A DNA stretch of 64,000 nt, taken from contig JAIWZP010000063.1 of the NCBI GenBank assembly GCA_025201375.1, positions 62,001-126,000 of the forward strand, given 5' to 3'. A program made the translations under genes and the position numbers. Positions 29,155 through 62,766 of the stretch are shown one piece after another. The notes under the pieces were generated by a model. That model worked only from the letters and a program-made list of their open reading frames with translations, made no database searches and was not told the DNA's origin. Source of the stretch: Gongronella butleri. Taxonomy: Eukaryota; Mucoromycota; Mucoromycetes; Mucorales; Cunninghamellaceae. Position 1 is the first letter of the stretch. Each line of letters begins with the position of its first letter.

Positions 29155-29852
29155 TATTCAAAAAAAAGAAAAAAAAGACATAAAAGAATCAAAATCAAAA
29201 AAAGATATGAAGACTATTATTATTACATGATGTGCAGAAAACAAGGCAACTTGCACTAGGCAAAATCACAGTATCTCAGGAATGCAATATCACAGGAGTC
29301 TGAAACTTGGTCAAAACTAAATCAGAATCAAAGCTACATTTTTCATTAGTAGCTCATCCCGATTAGGCAATTGTAAAGGCCAAAAATCGGTGGTAGGCGT
29401 ATAAGGCACTTTAGCCAAAACTTGCCCATTTGCCAGCCATTGACACCCGCTTTGCCCAAACACTGCTACAGTACTGTACCTTCACTGTACGGTACAGTGC
29501 CCTCCAAAAAAAAAACGTCCCCCTGGCTAATTTTCAGCCGCGCCAGCAGTCAACTTAATCACGTTAATCTGTCCTGTATTGACCAGGAATGACTCGAATG
29601 ACATGAAATTTCGTAGGAACAATGACATAAAGGTATAAAAACGATTCTAAAATTATGAAATGGCTATAGCTTGCGGATTTTGAAATAGACCAAAAAGAGG
29701 TACCTGACGCGTCACGCGACGCGACGCGTACCTACGCGTATAAAATGGCCTGTGGAGACGAAATGCCATTATGAACATCATCTCCAAATTTTTCTGAGTC
29801 GCGTGTAATGGTGTCTGATTGTATTCTATGAATCAATTTCATGTTACACGCA

Positions 29853-30138
29853 TCACATCGGTGCTGTGATCGATAAATGTAAAATATTATGTGACGCGTG
29901 CACGTGTCAGACGCGTCAAGAGTCGCGATTTCCTTCGTAACATGGCCGTAGTGCTCTTACTGGTCAATCAATCAATAACAGCTTATTCTAGTCCTTCAAA
30001 TTAAATAATTACAATTGTTTCAAGCCAACTAGGGATTAAAATTATATAACAGAGATGAAAATTGTGATTCCGGACGCGCCTGACGCGTGACGCGTGTCAC
30101 ATAATATTTTACATTTATCGATCACAGCACCGATGTGA
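29853..30138. mobile_element. MITE-like element with 43-bp terminal inverted repeats
   Basis: The sequence at 29853-29895, starting TCACATCGGTGCTGTGATCG and ending TTATGTGAC, is repeated as a perfect reverse complement at 30096-30138. Both arms are followed inward by ACGCGTC/GCGTGAC words. The element is 286 bp and has no coding frame, which fits a non-autonomous miniature inverted-repeat element. No convincing target-site duplication is visible (flanks are ...TACACGCA and AAAAAAAACAAA...), so transposition is not proven. Confidence 0.6.
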
Positions 30139-32335: not shown

Positions 32336-32896
32336 TCAATCCTTGACGGAGCCATCGCGTGGCCGATAATCGAGTCCACGACGATCCAATTCGTCCTCGA
32401 CATCCTCGGGGACACGGCCGTACACTCGGATGGCATAGATGCCACGATGGAATTTCTCTAAAAAAAAAAGCAAAAATAGGCGGTGAGTTGCTACGCCAAG
32501 TCTGTTTTGCTCGAATTGGTGTTACTTGTTACTTACCTATCCGTTGCCAGCGAGCGACCCAACTCTCGGCGGGCTGCATGAGCGTGATCATACTAGAAAA
32601 AGAGCGAGTGAGCTAGACAAACAAGGCGATCGACGCGAATTTTTTACCCGTCAAATTTTGAGCTGGTGCAGTCAGTGACGCGATCGGTGCTGCCCTTCAT
32701 GCGCAAGATTTCTTCACAGTTCTCGCATCCGTCTTGCCGAAATTGTGTCGCATTCTGCAGGATGGAGCGAATAAAACAGAAAAAAAAAAAACACGTCAAT
32801 TTCGTCTAAAAGCCCGATGTCACTGCTTACCTTGACAAGCGAGCATAGAAGACAGGCACGTAGCTGCTTCTTTTCTTGAGGTAGAACGTGGGACAT
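32336..32896 (-). CDS. SPT4: transcription elongation factor SPT4
   Basis: Small zinc-finger subunit of the Spt4-Spt5 (DSIF) complex that binds elongating RNA polymerase II. Exons 32896-32831, 32754-32648, 32592-32537 and 32457-32336 give 116 aa, the family length. The zinc site is C-x2-C in RACLLCSLVK paired with C-x2-C in DGCENCEEIL. SKFDGMITLMQPAESWVARW is the conserved core, and the tail FHRGIYAIRVYGRVPEDV is near-invariant in Spt4. The Fanzor-type gene ends 244 bp upstream on the same strand. A possible 5' leader intron lies at 33023-33123, so the SPT4 transcript may start inside the Fanzor 3' end. Confidence 0.96.
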
Positions 32897-33022
32897 GAGA
32901 GGTGAGGGGGGTACAGCAAGACGAGGAAAGGAAGGAACCAAGGGCTGAGGTCAAAAGCCCGTTTGATACCTTTTCAATCTCCGCCCTTGTGCCAAAAAAA
33001 AAAGAGCGGCTCACTTCTTGCA

Positions 33023-33123
33023 CTGCAAAAAAAAAAAAAAGCAAAAGTCAGTGACCAACCACATGTCTGCAAAACGACTGCTATGCTCCCCATTTCACGA
33101 CTGCCTTTTTTGTCCGTGCTTAC
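33023..33123 (-). other. putative untranslated intron between Fanzor stop and SPT4 start
   Basis: On the minus strand a GTAAGCACGG donor (33123-33114) lies 17 bp after the Fanzor stop, and a T-tract acceptor TTTTTGCAG ends at 33023. The 101-bp span looks like every other intron in the window. It could belong to the Fanzor 3' UTR or to the SPT4 5' leader. The direct repeat ACGACTGC occurs twice inside it (33074-33081, 33097-33104). Confidence 0.45.
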
Positions 33124-33140
33124 CAATAACCTGGCGATCA

Positions 33141-36100
33141 TTATGCAATCATGGTCTGCTTTTTTGGCAGCCAATGGAAGGGGGGTTGTTGGGGGTCGGG
33201 TTCATCGTAAGCCTTTGTGAAGACGGCGGGGCGCGAGTCCTTGTTGTCTGGGTCCAAGGCGGGGAGATTGCGACCATTGATGTTCATGAGGGCGATGGCA
33301 CGGATGTTCCGCGCAGCATTGACATCCCGCTGCCAAATCCGCGCGCACCAGGTACAGGTGAGCGCGCCGTGCAGCTTGAAATTGTCAACGCCGCTGTCAC
33401 GCTTTGTCACATTCGTGAGGGATCGGCGACCACAAGATGAGCATGTCTTGCTGGTGTATGGCTCTGGTACTTGTACGACGAGCAGTCGACACGCGCGTTG
33501 GGCAAGGGCCAGGGCGCGTCGGAGCAGCGCAGGGCGTCCACTTGGCTTGCCGCGCCAATTCATGCGCCGGAATTGCGCGTCGCCAATGCAAATCAGAGGG
33601 CATTTCCCAAATAAGCGCCTGTTGGGTGCTTTGCGCCACCTGGATGGCAAAAAAAAAAAAAAAAAAAAAAAAAAAAGACAATCAATTGAATGTTTCTCGT
33701 GAATAACCTGGCTCTTGCTCTTGCTCTTGCTTTCTTACTTGAGGTCTTGGTCAACAACCGTGGATGCCGTCTGCCTGCTATGCGTAAAAAAAATAAAAAA
33801 TAAAAAAAAGGGGTGGGGATGATGCTTAATGGCAAGATTCTCGGGACAGGGTCGGTCGCTCGTTGTCTCCTCCTTACCTCGCACCGTCTTGATCTCTGGG
33901 CGGCGGCCCCGTGGTGTCTTTGGGCTGATATTTGCTGCCACCGTGGCAAAGGATTCTGACCATTTCTTCTGTTGCTCTTTGCCTGCCTTGATAGTTGAGA
34001 AATCGCAAGCCTTGATGTGCAAGGGCGTAATGTGCCATGAGGCGAGGCATGGCAGCCAGGACGCTTTCAATATGCTGCGCCATTCTGCTGGGCATCGACG
34101 TCTTGGCGCTGGCCAGCTGGGATTCCAGGTGGGTGATGGTCGAGCCCTCTTGGTCGATATCATTGGCCTTCCAACTCTTGATTTTTGCATTGGATCGCTT
34201 GATGCCGGCCACATGATCAAATTCGTGAGCAGAAAAACGTCGGACTTGGTGCCGTTGCCCTTTCTCGACGTGGCGGTGGGATTGATGGCGCGGTATTGAC
34301 GGCGATCTTGCCTGATTCGACGCCGCATCATGCTTGAGCGGCCGCACTGAGGCAGACCGGACTCGATGGCGAACAGAGGGGGGCCGCGGCGGCAATGTTG
34401 GGTGCGTGGGGCCATAGATGTTGTCGTCCTGGCTAGATCCATCGACTGCCACAAACACTTCAGTCACGCCCGGATCCACGCCCCAAACATGGCAGTGTTG
34501 GAGATCCTCGGGCTCAATGTCGTCTAGAGTCAGCTGCGTAGGGGCCTTGCCGGTGATTGGGATGCGATAATACAGGGATAGAGCCAAGCCGTCAGTTGCC
34601 AGCGCATTGTCAAACACGGCTTGCTTGGGTCTGGAAAAAAAAAAAAAAAAAAAACGTCAGCCTCATTCTCTTTTTTTTTTTTTTTGCTCTTTTTTCATCT
34701 TTTACTTTCGAATTTTGGTCCAATTGAAGAGTTGGTCGAAGACAGGATGCACCGAGCCGTCGTCAGGCGCTGATTTCGTGCCCTGTTTGTACTTTGTGAG
34801 GCCCAAAAAGGTCAAAAGGCCCAAAAGGCTTCTATGGGACCAATGGATGTAGCGCAATCTGAAGGAAAGGCTGGGAACCACGGAAAAAAGACGGATGGCT
34901 GGGCGGGCGATGTAGATTTCGGGCATGAAGGTGTTGTTTTTGATCTTGTGCTTGGTTTCCGTGACAATGTCCTTGATTGCACCTTGGGATTCTTGGTCGT
35001 CCAATTGCTTTTGGTATGGCAGGCGCGTGATGTCAAGCGAGTGGTCCTTGCCATTGATGATTTTTGTGATGACGCGGGTCAAACGCGATCGTCGGCGGTA
35101 ATTGAGGCCTTCCCAGGCTGGCATCTTTTCTTCCAATTGATGCTTGGTCCAAGGAAAGGTTGCCTCGGTGGCGACTTGCGCGGGTCTTGCAGTATTGTCA
35201 TCGTTCCAGGCTTCCATCTCCTTGAGGGCGTCGTAGAGAACTTTGAGGAAGAAATGGGGGTATTTTGTCAATGTTGCTGTTGTGACGGACGCATTCTGGG
35301 AGACGTGGAGTTGTGCCATGGCTGCCGCGCCGACGGTGCTCGTGGACATGGCGTCCGATGCATGCATCATGGAAACGTCGTCGTCGTCCAAAGGCTCGAT
35401 TTCCATTGGATGGTCCTCGTCGTCGTCGCCATTGTCGTTGTTGTTGTTGTTGTCATTGGCAGCGGCCATGGCGGCCATGATGCTTGCGACTTGAGCGTCT
35501 GCGGCTGAGGCATCTGCAGCGGCAGCCTCAGCGTCGGCGTTCTTGGCTGTGGACAAGGCGATCGATGTGGCATGCTTTTGTGCGGCTTGCTGGGCAAGTT
35601 GGTGAGACACGTCTGCGCCACGCCGTGCATTTTCGACGGTGGCCACAAGCACTGCTGAGTAGTCCAATGCGCCACGATATGCTTGGTCTGCTTGCCGAAA
35701 GGATTCTTGTGCAATGGCGGCCATGGCGGCGGGTGCTTGTTCCAAGGCGGCACGTGCAATACTTGCAGCCTCGGCCAACGGTGGGATCACAGCCGAATGA
35801 TGAGCATTTGCGGCATGCGCACATGCATTGTATGCCAAGAGCGCGTTCCGGGCGCCAACATGCATCGTCGCGGCCACGTTGCCGTCAAATTCCGTCTCTT
35901 GTGCTTGAGCCATGGCGGCGACTTGCGCCTCGGCGGCGGCAGCGTGCAATTCGGCCGCTCGATCGCGTGCGGATTGCAATGCAGCGGCTTGGAGGGCAGC
36001 AGCTTCCGCAATGGCAGCTTCTTGGGCGGCAATGGCAGCTTCCTGGGCGGCAATGGCAGCTTCTTGGGCTGCAGCAGCAGCAGCTTGTGCGCCGGCAGAC

Positions 36101-37743
36101 GACTCGGCGGCGACCATCTCTGGTGCAGGCGGCGCCTGGGGAGCGGGCGAGCTGAATGTCAGAGCGGCAATGATCGCATTGCGGTTGGCCAGGGACATTT
36201 CGCGCGCTCGATCATTGGCTTCTTGTCGCTTGCGCGAGGCTTCGGCAATTTGAGCCTTCTCTTCTACGACAGAATCGCCCACCCGCGCCAATTTGCTTTC
36301 AGCGTGCTGCGCCAGATCGTCCGCGTCGTTCTTCAGCTGCTCTTTTTGCTCCGCCTTCATCTTCTTGTAGTCGGGCAGCTCTGGCGGAAACAGCTCGTCT
36401 TTGCACACCTTGTCATACGCATACATGGCGTAAGAGCGGCAATGGTGCGGCTTTAGACCCTAAAAGAAAAAAAAAAAGAAAAAAAAGAAACCCCCCACAC
36501 GAAAGTGAGCAATCCTGTGGAGATGCGGCCTGTCCATGAACTTACGGGATGGTCCAACGCAAACTTTGCGGCCAGGTAACGCATGAAGAAAATCTCAAAG
36601 TTTTCGACCACATGGTTCTTCATCATTGTCGCCAATTGCATCGCCGTGTAGTCCGTGACGGTTGCGAATCCATTGGGCTTGCCGTTCACACCAACCAGCT
36701 TGTTCATGTGGATTTGCGGATGCTCGGTTTTGAATTGATCGAATGCTTGTAAAAAGGCAGTGCGCGTGTCGTTGTCCGCAAAGAGGGCCTTGTTGGAGAC
36801 GGGATTACCAAGAATCAGCTGAAACACTGCAATGAAAAACGCCTGTGTAAACAGGGCACGTGGGACGTGGCCACCGCTGTGGAGGATGTCGATGACGTAT
36901 TTTTGAGTGAACAGAATGGCATTGATGGCGAGATGTCGATTGAATGTGACGATGTTGTGGATGCCATCCAGGAGGATGCGCTGATCGTCGTCGGTAATGT
37001 CATTGCTCAGTAGAGAGGCCAGACCATGCTTGATTGTCGTTCGACGCGTCTTGCCAAGGCGCTCCTTTGTTTTCACCGACTTGCGCTTGATGTAATCTGG
37101 GCAGAGCTGATTCGTAGGTCTTGCGTGGGTGTATGCCAATTCAAGACGCGCCTTGGCCTCGGCACGGAGGCGCTCCACGTCGGGATCGTCTTGAGCAGCA
37201 ACGGGGTCCGCATGTCCCTCGATCAGTGCCGTCGCCTCGTCATCCAGCCGGGCAGCCGCGCTCTTGCATCGAGGACAAGGATTTTGTACAGCCGCAGAAC
37301 TTGCCTTGGTCGCCGCCGCAAATTCTTCCTTGGCGCTGGTCTTTTTTTCCTTCTCATCCTTGTTTTGTCGGCGTTTGGCGGTCATCCGTCCCTTGCCCTT
37401 TTTTTGGCGCTTGGCTAAGATTAAAAAAAAAAAAAAAAGTGAGAGGCTGCTCTTTAGCGACGCGTCTTTCTGCTCTTTTTAGCTTACCACTAGTATCGCT
37501 GGATGTCCCGGCCTCGGATGCTGCTTGAATTTGCTCTGTTGTCGCTCCAGCGGCGTCGTCCGCCGCGACTTCTCCTTGGCCGTCACTTTGTTGTCCTCCA
37601 ATCGGCGCCTCCCCGTCTTGCTGCTCGACGCGAGCCACCGTCGCTGCCGTCTCACCTTCCTCACCTTCCTCGCCCTGTTCTTCCTGTTGTGCTGCACGTG
37701 CCTTTGCGTCAAGTTTCTCCTTTACAATGGAAAAAAACGGCAT
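33141..37743 (-). CDS. Fanzor-type RNA-guided nuclease (eukaryotic TnpB relative)
   Basis: Exons 37743-37488, 37414-36546, 36459-34706, 34630-33878, 33777-33739 and 33639-33141 join in frame to 1389 aa. After an acidic N-terminus, VTFNRHLAINAILFTQKYVI and RLFSVVPSLSFRLRYIHW (about 898-915) look like the Fanzor core. RuvC-I is WGVDPGVTEVFVAVDG with D1012. RRFSAHEFDHVAG follows, then CIGDAQF (1241-1247). VQVPEPYTSKTCSSCG holds E1283, a candidate for the rearranged Fanzor glutamate, and C1290/C1293. The zinc ribbon closes at C1319/C1322, and RDVNAARNI gives RuvC-III D1329. Exon 3 inserts an Ala-rich, coiled-coil-like region (about 440-735) and an Asn/Asp stretch. Known Fanzors use a guide RNA encoded at the element's 3' end. 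No transposase or terminal repeats are visible, so it may be solitary or domesticated. Confidence 0.85.
35990..36080 (-). repeat. 21-bp coding tandem repeat (AAIAAQE heptads)
   Basis: Three near-perfect 21-bp copies encode consecutive AAIAAQE heptads within the Ala-rich insert of the Fanzor-type protein. Such heptads favour a long helix or coiled coil. Confidence 0.8.
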
Positions 37744-38203
37744 CGCTGCGTGTAGGGATAAACAAGAAGGTAATGGGGAAGAAAAGGGAAAACTCAAATC
37801 CCCGCTCGCTCCCTTTTTTTTTTTTATCGTCTCATTTTTGATCACCTCCCCCGCCCTTTTTTTTTTCTTTGACAAATCCACAGCTCTCATCCACCTCAAA
37901 AATGATCCTCAAATATCATGGCTATCTTGGAAGCTTAAATAGAACAGCAGCGCATGTATATCTTCTTCCAAGGATCGTTTTACTGTGCCACTGCTTTTTA
38001 AACGGAGAAACAAAAGAGAAAACGCGTCGCACATCTTTGTCACAATAGCATCTTCTGGAAATTCGCCCAATCAATTCTTCCTTGGCCCATTAAAGGCAAC
38101 CCTCAGCGAGTTTTTTTTTGCTGTGCTGGACGCTCCCCTTTTTCTGCACGCACCTCTTCCCTGTTTCTTTCTTTCTTTTTTTTTTTATTTGACAAGGGTT
38201 GCG
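37744..38203. other. shared divergent promoter of Fanzor-type gene and UNC80-like gene
   Basis: 460 bp between two start codons facing apart. It is pyrimidine-rich on the plus strand near the right start (TTTCTTTCTTTTTTTTTT). No clear TATA box and no terminal inverted repeat of a transposon are visible. Confidence 0.6.
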
Positions 38204-60194: not shown

Positions 60195-60927
60195 TCCCCC
60201 CACCACTCTTTTTGCCATCCAATTCTCCTCCCTCGTTGATATTTATTGTATTTGGTCCCTTCCACCCACCCATCCTTCTTTATTTTGCCTCTTGTCACAA
60301 ATTAAACAAAAAAATTGAACACGTTATTGCGGAATGGCGGTGCGAAAAAACAGGCATTGCAAGTACGACGCGTTCTTTTTGTTTTTTTTTGCATGCCACC
60401 ACACGTGTCTCAACGGCGCGAACAATGCAGCCAATGAACGCGCGCAATGCACGCGTTCTTGTATTCCATTGGTTCGGCTAATCGGCCGCCGAATTGCCGA
60501 AAAACACGCGTTTCTTGAACGGCGCCATAAAATTAGCATGTTACGGCCATACGATTCTGAAAGCGCCAGATCCCGTCCGATCTCTGCAGCGATCCAGAAT
60601 ACGGCCTGGTTAGTACTGCGGTGAGAGATCACGCGGGAATACCAGGTGCTGTAATTTTTTATATAAACTACTTTTTTTTGTGCAATTCTTATTTTATTTT
60701 GCATGTTGTTCTGTTTTTTTTTTTTTGTTTTTTGTTTTGTGCGTGGTGCGAGGCATGCTGCGCAACAGAGGCCAATCTGAAACGAGCGATTTGGGCAAAG
60801 AGTGACGGCTTGCGGGGTTCAAATTCCCACTTTTGGTGCCAAACCTTGCATTTTTTTCGTGTTTGCCACTTGCCCCCCTTTTTTTTCTTTCTTTCGCCCT
60901 TTTTTCTTTTTTTTTCGTACCTTACAT
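60195..60927. other. spacer with tRNA-like module before the F-box gene
   Basis: No gene. A stretch at about 60760-60830 resembles the tRNA-like module near 3409-3473, and T-rich tracts follow up to the ATG at 60928. Confidence 0.55.
60760..60842 (+). repeat. tRNA-like box A/box B module (second copy)
   Basis: GCGCAACAGAGGCCAATCTG followed some 40 bp later by GCGGGGTTCAAATTCCCAC. The box B half fits the Pol III consensus well. The acceptor stem does not close, so it is not a functional tRNA. It lies about 90 bp before a start codon, as does the copy near 3409. Confidence 0.35.
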
Positions 60928-62766
60928 ATGGTTGACTTGCCGCTGGAGCTAGTGACGCTCATTTTATGCCACATGAGTGAGGACGACTTGCTAGAAAATG
61001 CTCGATTTGTCAATCGTGAATGGTCTCGTATTGCGCTAAAGGAAATCGTCAGGGATAAAATCTTCCATTTCGAAGACCTCGACATCCTCCGGCGCCACCT
61101 GAATTGCTTCCTTGCCAATCCAAACGCGCCCTTGCCGATAAATTACGTGGAATTCAACATGATGGAATTCGATCAGTCTTCACCTTATATGTTTTACAAC
61201 CGAGACAGCTTTGACGCGTACTGCTCGCTTGCCACTGCAGTGGCACGTCACCTGAGCAAAATCGATTGGATGTGGTTGTTTTTCAGAATCGATACACGCC
61301 GCCAGCCATATCAAGGGACCTTCATACAGCAACTCGTCCAAAATTCGACAATGAAAAAGCTTACACTCGACGTTACCATGCCTCCTCCATTTCTTCACAA
61401 TCTCTTGCCCTTTATCACGCCTCACCTATGCAGCCTTGAGCTCCAAACGGGCAATGGTTCTCAAAGCAGGGTTGATTTGGGCTTCATGCTTTCGTTGCTG
61501 CGCCGCTTTCCCAGTCTGAAGACAGTCATGATGGATTTCGTCAGCTGTAAAGTCGATGGCGTCCCTCTGGCAGACTTTGTTTGCACATCGTTAGCTGAGC
61601 ATCCGCAGCATTTCAACATGGACACGGTGAATTTGTTATTTTGGAAAGACAGATGGGATCGCACCACGCCCCAGGAACGTCCGTCGGCACATCTTGCAAA
61701 TGTTGCCTTGTTCTTTTGGCACCTCATGCCACGGCTTCGTCATTTCCTCATCAGTATCCACGACGACATGATCCATCAAAATCTTCCATTGGACTGCGCA
61801 ATGCCTCCTCTTCTTGTCAACTACCCCAAGCACGTGCGTGTCTTGTATCGTGACCCGCCCACGGGCAGTCAATTGCCAACTCCCGCTGATACGATGGCGG
61901 CGGTCCCACTCATTCCTTGTGTTGACACCGATACCAAGCTCATGGATGTGGAATTGGGATACAACTCCATTTCCGCACTTGCACTTATACCTCGATCGCG
62001 AATTAACACGCTCGAAATCGGTATAGCGTCTGGAGACCACGACCGGCTCAAAACCTTGCCATTGGCACTGCAAGGTCTAACCTCATTGACGCGTCTGGAA
62101 TTCTATGGCAATGGTCATCTGCCCGACGTGGAATCCATGTTCCCCGTTGAAACGCCAAATTGTAATCTCAAGGAGCTGGAATTCCGACGCTGCACACTCG
62201 ATGACCCTGGTGCCCTGGAGAGGATGCTGCTTCGATTGCCGGCCTTGGCGACTCTCAGGCTGTCCAAGCTGAATTTTGCCTCGTGGTCCTATGAACCAAC
62301 CATGTTGTTTGAACATCCGTGGGTGCCCGCGCTGCGCTCTTTCATTGTCCCGCTCCAGTGGATGTCTTTGCCAACGGATGCCGCCGAAATCTCCATTGAT
62401 CACGACTTTGAAAAGTCGCGCGTGTGCTTTGTTCTGGCAAGCGACGCGCCTCCCAAAGAACCCAATGTGCAAGTGTGGACACACCGCAATTTAGAATACT
62501 ACGATACATCCACCAAAAAGGGACCTAGTAGGCTACGTAATGGCTACCTTCCTTGGATTTTCGAGCGCATTGTCTCGAACCGGAAGCTCAGGAAGACGAC
62601 CGCGCCGAGACCAGGCTACCATCCGGGCCCCTTGGTGTTGCACGATCTTTATGCGCACCCTGGCGCGATTGTTTACATGTGCAAGTCCCTCAAGCAGGTG
62701 AAAATTTGTGAACGAAAAAAACACGTGTATGATTTATCATCCTATGAAACTGTTCCATTGTTCTAA
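60928..62766 (+). CDS. F-box protein with LRR-like body
   Basis: Single-exon gene of 612 aa. The N-terminus (LPLELVTLILCHMSEDDLLE, then NARFVNREWSRIALKEI) is an F-box that would bind Skp1 in an SCF ubiquitin ligase. The body has irregular leucine-rich segments (MKKLTLDVTMPPPF, LCSLELQTG, LTRLEFYGNGHLPDVESMF, LKELEFRRCTL, LATLRLSKLNF), the layout of the many expanded F-box/LRR proteins of zygomycete fungi. No target can be named. It is intronless, unlike most neighbours. An in-frame extension upstream to 60802 exists but runs through the T-rich leader and the tRNA-like module, so the ATG just before VDLPLELV was chosen. Confidence 0.88.
   Translation: MVDLPLELVTLILCHMSEDDLLENARFVNREWSRIALKEIVRDKIFHFEDLDILRRHLNCFLANPNAPLPINYVEFNMMEFDQSSPYMFYNRDSFDAYCSLATAVARHLSKIDWMWLFFRIDTRRQPYQGTFIQQLVQNSTMKKLTLDVTMPPPFLHNLLPFITPHLCSLELQTGNGSQSRVDLGFMLSLLRRFPSLKTVMMDFVSCKVDGVPLADFVCTSLAEHPQHFNMDTVNLLFWKDRWDRTTPQERPSAHLANVALFFWHLMPRLRHFLISIHDDMIHQNLPLDCAMPPLLVNYPKHVRVLYRDPPTGSQLPTPADTMAAVPLIPCVDTDTKLMDVELGYNSISALALIPRSRINTLEIGIASGDHDRLKTLPLALQGLTSLTRLEFYGNGHLPDVESMFPVETPNCNLKELEFRRCTLDDPGALERMLLRLPALATLRLSKLNFASWSYEPTMLFEHPWVPALRSFIVPLQWMSLPTDAAEISIDHDFEKSRVCFVLASDAPPKEPNVQVWTHRNLEYYDTSTKKGPSRLRNGYLPWIFERIVSNRKLRKTTAPRPGYHPGPLVLHDLYAHPGAIVYMCKSLKQVKICERKKHVYDLSSYETVPLF

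Follow-up and report, generated by a model that had tools for sequence, protein, structure and literature searches.

The window analysed here is a 64,000-nucleotide (nt) stretch of contig JAIWZP010000063.1 of the mould Gongronella butleri, order Mucorales (positions 62,001 to 126,000, forward strand). It carries a gene for a predicted Fanzor1 protein, lying on an apparently mobile element whose right end reads like a spliceosomal intron. Fanzors are eukaryotic relatives of TnpB and Cas12; to our knowledge, little has been established about how their guide RNAs are produced and controlled in the nucleus. The gene runs on the minus strand from 37743 to 33141, and its six exons join to 4170 nt, encoding 1389 amino acids (aa) and a stop codon, with no internal stops. 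Exon 1 (37488..37743) encodes an N-terminus rich in acidic residues, exon 2 (36546..37414) an N-terminal domain that is probably REC, and exon 3 (34706..36459) an alanine-rich stretch followed by a conserved region. RuvC-I with D1012 lies in exon 4 (33878..34630), exon 5 (33739..33777) measures 39 nt, and exon 6 (33141..33639) holds E1283, the zinc ribbon, D1329 and the stop codon. The internal introns (73, 86, 75, 100 and 99 nt) begin with GTAA and end with YAG in all five cases. All key residues are in place: D1012 in VDPG (1011-1014), GDAQF at 1243, E1283 in PEPYTSKTCSSC before TSKTCSSC, C1319/C1322, and D1329 in RDVNAARN. A preliminary description of this DNA had proposed the six-exon frame with these motifs; both stand, and other genomic copies read through on the projected exons. 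It had also called the protein much longer than those known, which holds against the 600-700 aa that PMC11423790, in its available text, reports for most Fz1 proteins. The extra length is mainly the alanine-rich stretch (residues 470-700, 40% alanine) and the acidic N-terminus.

To which branch of these nucleases does the protein belong? Pfam returned a single match, PF07282 at residues 1276-1336 (E 3.6e-11), and no transposase domain. As a single query, the protein gave weak phmmer results against the PDB, with GtFz1 only at E 0.058, and a PDB search with its N-terminal 322 aa found nothing except TauD at E 0.53. A seven-row profile was then assembled from a C-terminal piece of the window protein (part of the alanine-rich stretch omitted) and six database relatives, P0001-P0006. 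Its best solved structures are GtFz1 of Guillardia (6.6e-18) and SpuFz1 of Spizellomyces (2.8e-13); the TnpB-like L79 comes next (2.5e-7), and LaTranC, Cas12g and TnpB entries also rank below both Fanzor1 structures. Matches to GtFz1 are colinear across the N-terminal part, RuvC-I and the zinc ribbon, the N-terminal section of the profile being the relatives' sequence and not the window protein's. That part of the relatives aligns with GtFz1 412-594, and the exon 2 domain matches residues 142-319 of P0002 (23% identity, E 2e-6). DPG is invariant in 7/7 alignment rows, and E1283 is aligned with E in P0002-P0006, P0001 being without that region. In Fanzors the RuvC glutamate is rearranged to a position six residues before the zinc ribbon, according to the portion of PMC10711439 at hand. 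The window protein also has the C4 zinc ribbon and RD motif that characterise Fanzor1. Because the best solved structures for the profile are GtFz1 and SpuFz1, we assign the gene, by sequence, to Fanzor1, and predict that it encodes an RNA-guided DNA-cutting enzyme. The Fanzor type proposed in the preliminary description is thus upheld by the PF07282 match, by the conserved rearranged glutamate and by the profile search, in which the top structures are Fanzor1.

The six relatives measure 796-1053 aa, in a search that admits only 0.55-1.75x the query length. One of them, P0001 (hypothetical protein BC940DRAFT_178544, Gongronella butleri), is identical to genomic copy L009 (contig C100) over residues 1-264 and 96% identical over the rest; the 96% part is one gapped stretch, and introns could account for the gap. 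P0001 is the annotated L009 product, with the C-terminal part absent. Exon 2 also encodes a Cys/His pattern, PCPRC ... TH ... LCP, which recurs in similar form in the consensus of the six relatives and is a possible extra zinc site.

The gene does not stand alone. Two further copies, L011 and L014, share 94.6-94.7% identity with the window copy, and this identity starts and stops sharply at 33018 and 38133, beyond which the flanks are unrelated on both sides. These borders enclose 5116 bp, with the gene on the minus strand, and the Fanzor gene is the only one recognised on this 5.1-kb element. Projected by alignment, the window exon columns read through in both other copies (1384 and 1388 aa, one terminal stop each), so that the frame, described earlier as undisturbed, is open in all three members of what we call subfamily A. 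At least 13 copies belong to other subfamilies; a scan of the 33.0-Mb assembly (110 contigs) gave 20 PF07282 matches, the window included. Three subfamilies occur as pairs with sharp ends and unrelated flanks on both sides, namely B (L015/L016, 90%), C (L022/L023, 97%) and D (L017/L018, 98%), and L013 and L020 have a 3' part in common (91.6%). A and D proteins are 27-36% identical over matched parts, and the left ends of the two subfamilies are alike (GCGTCCAGCACAGCAAAAAA and GCTTCATACACAGCAAAAAA). The weak or different-type loci L024-L027 were set aside, and the partial copies L029 and L030 are outside all counts.

Could the gene nevertheless have been domesticated, as the preliminary description had suggested in writing of a copy kept for a host role? 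Its open frame would suit that reading, as would the ratio of non-synonymous to synonymous substitution rates (dN/dS) of about 0.3. This ratio was computed among the three genomic A copies and came to 0.31-0.34 pairwise. For the RuvC part only, it is 0.40-0.66 within A, where changes are few, and 0.15 between the window and L015. Values below 1 are equally expected for a spreading element, and a lone host gene does not account for two more read-through copies of about 95% identity in unrelated flanks, for paired subfamilies or for element ends. Because three such copies with sharp ends lie in unrelated flanks, we conclude from the sequence comparison that the Fanzor gene rides a mobile element; the suggestion of a host role finds no support, and we regard domestication as very improbable.

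Several observations on the copies themselves may be added. The L017/L018 subfamily is shorter (3.9 kb, 98%) and has the same right-end signals as the others except CTRAY. Projected from the window exons, the frames of L015 and L016 are broken and not settled. In the alanine-rich part of exon 3 (34706-36459), alignment columns 2250-2549 give 0.93-0.96 for the window against L016 of subfamily B, and lower or equal values against its own A relatives (L011 0.79-0.88, L014 0.79-0.96); dS in these columns is 0.20-0.28 within A and only 0.31 between the window and L015. This mosaic looks like sequence exchange between subfamilies. L025 and L027, 93% identical to each other over a 3.4-kb repeat, match PF07282 weakly in a reading frame of some 800 aa that is interrupted by stops; they apparently represent a different element type.

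What marks the right end of these elements? In the window, a GTAAG donor lies 17 nt past the stop codon; CTGAC and a T-tract follow, and GCAG closes the element, the whole forming a predicted terminal intron at 33023..33123 on the minus strand. It measures 101 nt from the donor at 33123 to the GCAG at 33023, and the next five nucleotides, TGCAA, are common to the A copies. The same arrangement recurs across the family. A GTAAG or GTAAA donor stands 17-166 nt past the stop codon, within 17-68 nt in 13/16 copies, and the element closes with a T-tract and YAG, like the internal introns. We scored four signals: donor, CTRAY as a proxy for the branch point, T-tract and YAG. Donor, T-tract and YAG occur together in 14 of the 15 copies with a placed end, representing 8/9 lineages, and all four signals in 11/15. 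In 11 copies (those of A, B, C and D plus L013/L020) the point where homology ceases defines the border. It was judged by eye, which for L013/L020 meant looking beyond a small L020 deletion, and in 11/11 the YAG is 0-5 nt inward of it. At the 14 exact ends all four signals are present in 10; over the remainder of the window they coincide at 14 of 117160 strand positions. When the segments from stop codon to border were shuffled lineage by lineage, donor, T-tract and YAG appeared together in 0.1-0.65%. As a positive control, the internal introns of seven copies carry YAG, T-tract and a GTAAG or GTAAA donor in 27/31 cases; those of the A and B copies measure 60-130 nt. The junction of element and host thus reads as a splice junction, and it lies where the guide of a Fanzor should begin. 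The possibility of one intron running through the whole element from a left-end donor was also considered and set aside, as no donor is common to A, B and C: in the first 430 nt of seven copies, GTAAG occurs only in the B pair, GTAAA in the A copies, and no tried word in the C pair.

Alternatively, a transposase might bind the right end as a T-rich terminal repeat, such as a CACTA-like CACTN end, with the likeness to a splice site a by-product and no splicing taking place. The left end of the window copy, GCGTCCAGCACAGCAAAAAAAAA (38111..38133, minus strand), includes 16 bp that repeat the right end imperfectly in inverted orientation. This repeat, GCACWGCAAAAAAAAA, is found at both ends of the window copy and L014 and over 15 bp in L011, with shuffle p values (300 shuffles each) of 0.007 for the window, below 0.004 for L014 and 0.073 for L011. 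Long inverted repeats were rejected, the similarity extending over only about 16 bp in A, and even this short repeat is weak or absent in six B, C and D copies (p 0.03-0.99). CACTA-type Transposase_21 domains are present in the genome (nine matches, eight over cut-off, several in long open frames), and their proteins are possible mobilisers of elements ending in CAC...GTG. All three A copies have such ends, as does L016; by eye, 3-bp repeats that match are confined to L011 and L016. No consistent target duplication was found by eye, and no 9-bp MuDR-like duplication in nine copies of A, B, C and D. Two further features speak against a terminal repeat. Read outward, the left ends carry the full four-signal unit in 0/9 cases, and the GTAAG or GTAAA donor stands behind the stop codon in all 16 copies checked, plus L028, whereas an end repeat needs no donor. 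We consider a terminal repeat as the whole explanation unlikely.

Inside the terminal intron we found a conserved block, GGGGAGCATAG-N22-TTGG (33055..33091, minus strand), which is shared by A, C, L009 and the degraded copy L028 and could be a guide-RNA scaffold core or a transposase site. A genome-wide pattern search allowing N10-34 gave eight matches, seven of them at Fanzor right ends and each of these with exactly N22; the reversed pattern, searched genome-wide as a control, gave one. In Spizellomyces the guide RNA consists of a 75-nt scaffold just inside the right end and 14-15 nt of flank (PMC10432273, as far as its text is available), and the RNA of Parasitella PpFz1 measures 75 nt (PMC11423790, likewise in part). 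Because its position matches that of Fanzor1 guide scaffolds, we regard the block as a candidate for part of the scaffold. By analogy with SpuFz1 in the same portion of PMC10432273, the predicted 3' exon start and guide region were placed at 33003..33022 on the minus strand, directly after YAG; the first 5 nt are those common to the three A copies, and the remainder is flank.

The host DNA downstream of the right ends was examined by eye for the longest open reading frames (ORFs) within 1.5 kb of 14 copies, and ten chosen sequences, among which L009, L021, L022 and L023 were not included, were compared with Pfam. Behind the window copy lies the first part of an Spt4 gene (32690..32896, minus strand, low end approximate) in the same orientation as the Fanzor gene (Pfam 5e-16). 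Its ATG is 126 nt past the predicted acceptor, with no ATG between. In 8 of the 14 copies a gene or ORF of the same orientation starts within about 610 nt: besides Spt4, these are a DnaJ-like gene at +123 (L014, Pfam below cut-off), a 608-aa ORF at +122 (L020, no Pfam match), an ORF at about +84 (L013, no Pfam match), CTNNBL at +285 (L016, over cut-off), an RPC82-like fragment present from roughly +264, with an unsettled start (L018, HTH_9 below cut-off), a TCP1 chaperonin body from +489 whose start was not located (L015, over cut-off) and an ORF at about +609 (L010, no Pfam match). Spt4, TCP1 and CTNNBL are the three over the Pfam cut-off. The resulting 8-to-1 bias of same over opposite orientation is suggestive only.

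A number of points weigh against a terminal intron that also borders a guide. The ends of L009, L010, L021 and L028 are not independent, because the motif itself placed them. AG is lost in L021, and CTRAY is absent from D and L010; CTRAY is in any case a poor intron mark here, because only 9/31 internal introns carry it. L012 and L019 have a donor and no placeable end, and counting them as misses lowers the score to 14/17. The test words were picked after the ends had been inspected. Within A the terminal intron is 96-99% conserved and the internal introns 88-100%, so that it is not clearly more conserved, and the idea of stronger conservation was rejected. Since the end similarity is partly inverted-repeat-like, a transposase may use some of the right end. 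Three of the eight genes or ORFs located downstream lack a Pfam match and two are below cut-off; L017 faces an SH3 gene on the opposite strand, and by-eye ORFs within 1.5 kb gave nothing recognised in L011, L022, L023, L009 and L021, one L011 ORF having no match when compared with Pfam. The AlphaFold model of the relative P0002, built on a six-row alignment, is poor (predicted local distance difference test, pLDDT, 51; predicted template-modelling score, pTM, 0.28). Finally, the right-end RNA folds no better than shuffled sequence (z -0.41 in the case of the window intron, and from -1.80 to 1.14 among the seven sequences folded), and RNAalifold gave 0 consensus pairs at the right ends of these seven; neither result supports a conserved RNA structure.

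The lack of a conserved fold would also suit a simpler arrangement, in which the terminal intron only finishes the Fanzor mRNA with a host last exon and poly(A), while the guide RNA comes from a separate promoter. A donor 17-68 nt past the stop codon in most copies fits such an ordinary intron of the 3' untranslated region. The block with its fixed N22 argues for more, as it sits within the intron at the position of the Fanzor1 scaffold (available text of PMC10432273), and an arrangement serving only the mRNA end seems to us rather doubtful.

How, then, might the element use its terminal intron? Because the right end carries spliceosomal intron signals, we think it likely that this Fanzor1 element ends as a spliceosomal intron, and that its transcript is spliced from just behind the stop codon into the flanking host DNA, which would supply the guide. 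Every step beyond the splice signals at the border is inferred. The spliced product would be a Fanzor mRNA with a host-derived 3' end. In unspliced RNA, scaffold and flank would stay linked, and such RNA could give rise to a guide RNA, whereas splicing would part the predicted scaffold from the guide. Splicing into host RNA would further let a downstream gene be transcribed through, so that insertion before a gene might be tolerable. The enzyme would cut the empty target site and thereby favour re-copying of the element, as cutting of the empty site does for TnpB in general. The right end would thus be at once the expected border of the guide and a predicted splice acceptor, a direct link between splicing and guide production.

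Two other features of the window may be recorded. A 5S rRNA gene lies at 60539-60657 on the plus strand, and a stretch of about 650 bp at 29484-30135 recurs several times in L012 (contig C47), in both orientations and with 81-84% identity; this may be another mobile element.

How does this element compare with known systems? The Fanzor1 elements (SPu-1/SpuFz1, GtFz1, PpFz1, and the fungal ROr-4, PBl-3, MCi-2, MCi-4 and MCi-5) share with it the DPG of RuvC, the glutamate before the zinc ribbon, and a Fanzor-bearing transposable element whose right end faces the predicted guide. It differs in its protein of 1389 aa with an alanine-rich insert, and in that none of the duplications of 9, 11-12 or 6 bp described from the fungal elements (Bao and Jurka 2013, as far as available) was seen. 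It differs also in ending on the right with a predicted spliceosomal acceptor, a feature not found in the covered parts of their literature: neither PMC10711439 nor PMC3627910 has the words 'intron' or 'splic' in its main text, and 'intron' is absent from PMC10432273 and PMC11423790. Among the matches listed for Fanzor, TnpB and splicing, no title concerns terminal splice sites, other 2023 Fanzor surveys being outside this scope. A Fanzor element ending in a predicted splice site is therefore new as far as the literature searches reach. Some introners likewise have a terminal 3' splice site, everything else being supplied by the site of insertion (PMC9860276, available text); with medians of 30-654 nt they are short and act as introns of genes, whereas the Fanzor element measures 5 kb and contains a gene of its own.

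IStrons, too, are mobile elements with a splicing function. They carry TnpB, and in such bacterial transposon introns splicing reportedly competes with the guide RNA. They join a group I intron to an insertion sequence and occur in Firmicutes and Fusobacteria (PMC4227781, in the part available). The Gongronella element differs in bearing spliceosomal signals instead of a ribozyme; no self-splicing group I intron was found, and in the window 5S rRNA alone scored above the Rfam gathering threshold. Moreover, its donor lies inside the element, past the stop codon, and only the right-hand 61-132 nt would leave, not the whole element. We tentatively raise, as a possibility somewhat short of even, that it is a spliceosomal counterpart of the IStron, in which one transcript would have two exclusive fates, splicing (for Fanzor mRNA and for expression of the downstream host gene) or guide RNA, so that splicing would act as a switch on a genome-cutting enzyme, and in which insertion before essential genes would be harmless. 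If so, it would parallel the conflict between intron and guide in the bacterial transposon introns, in several readable copies within a single mould.

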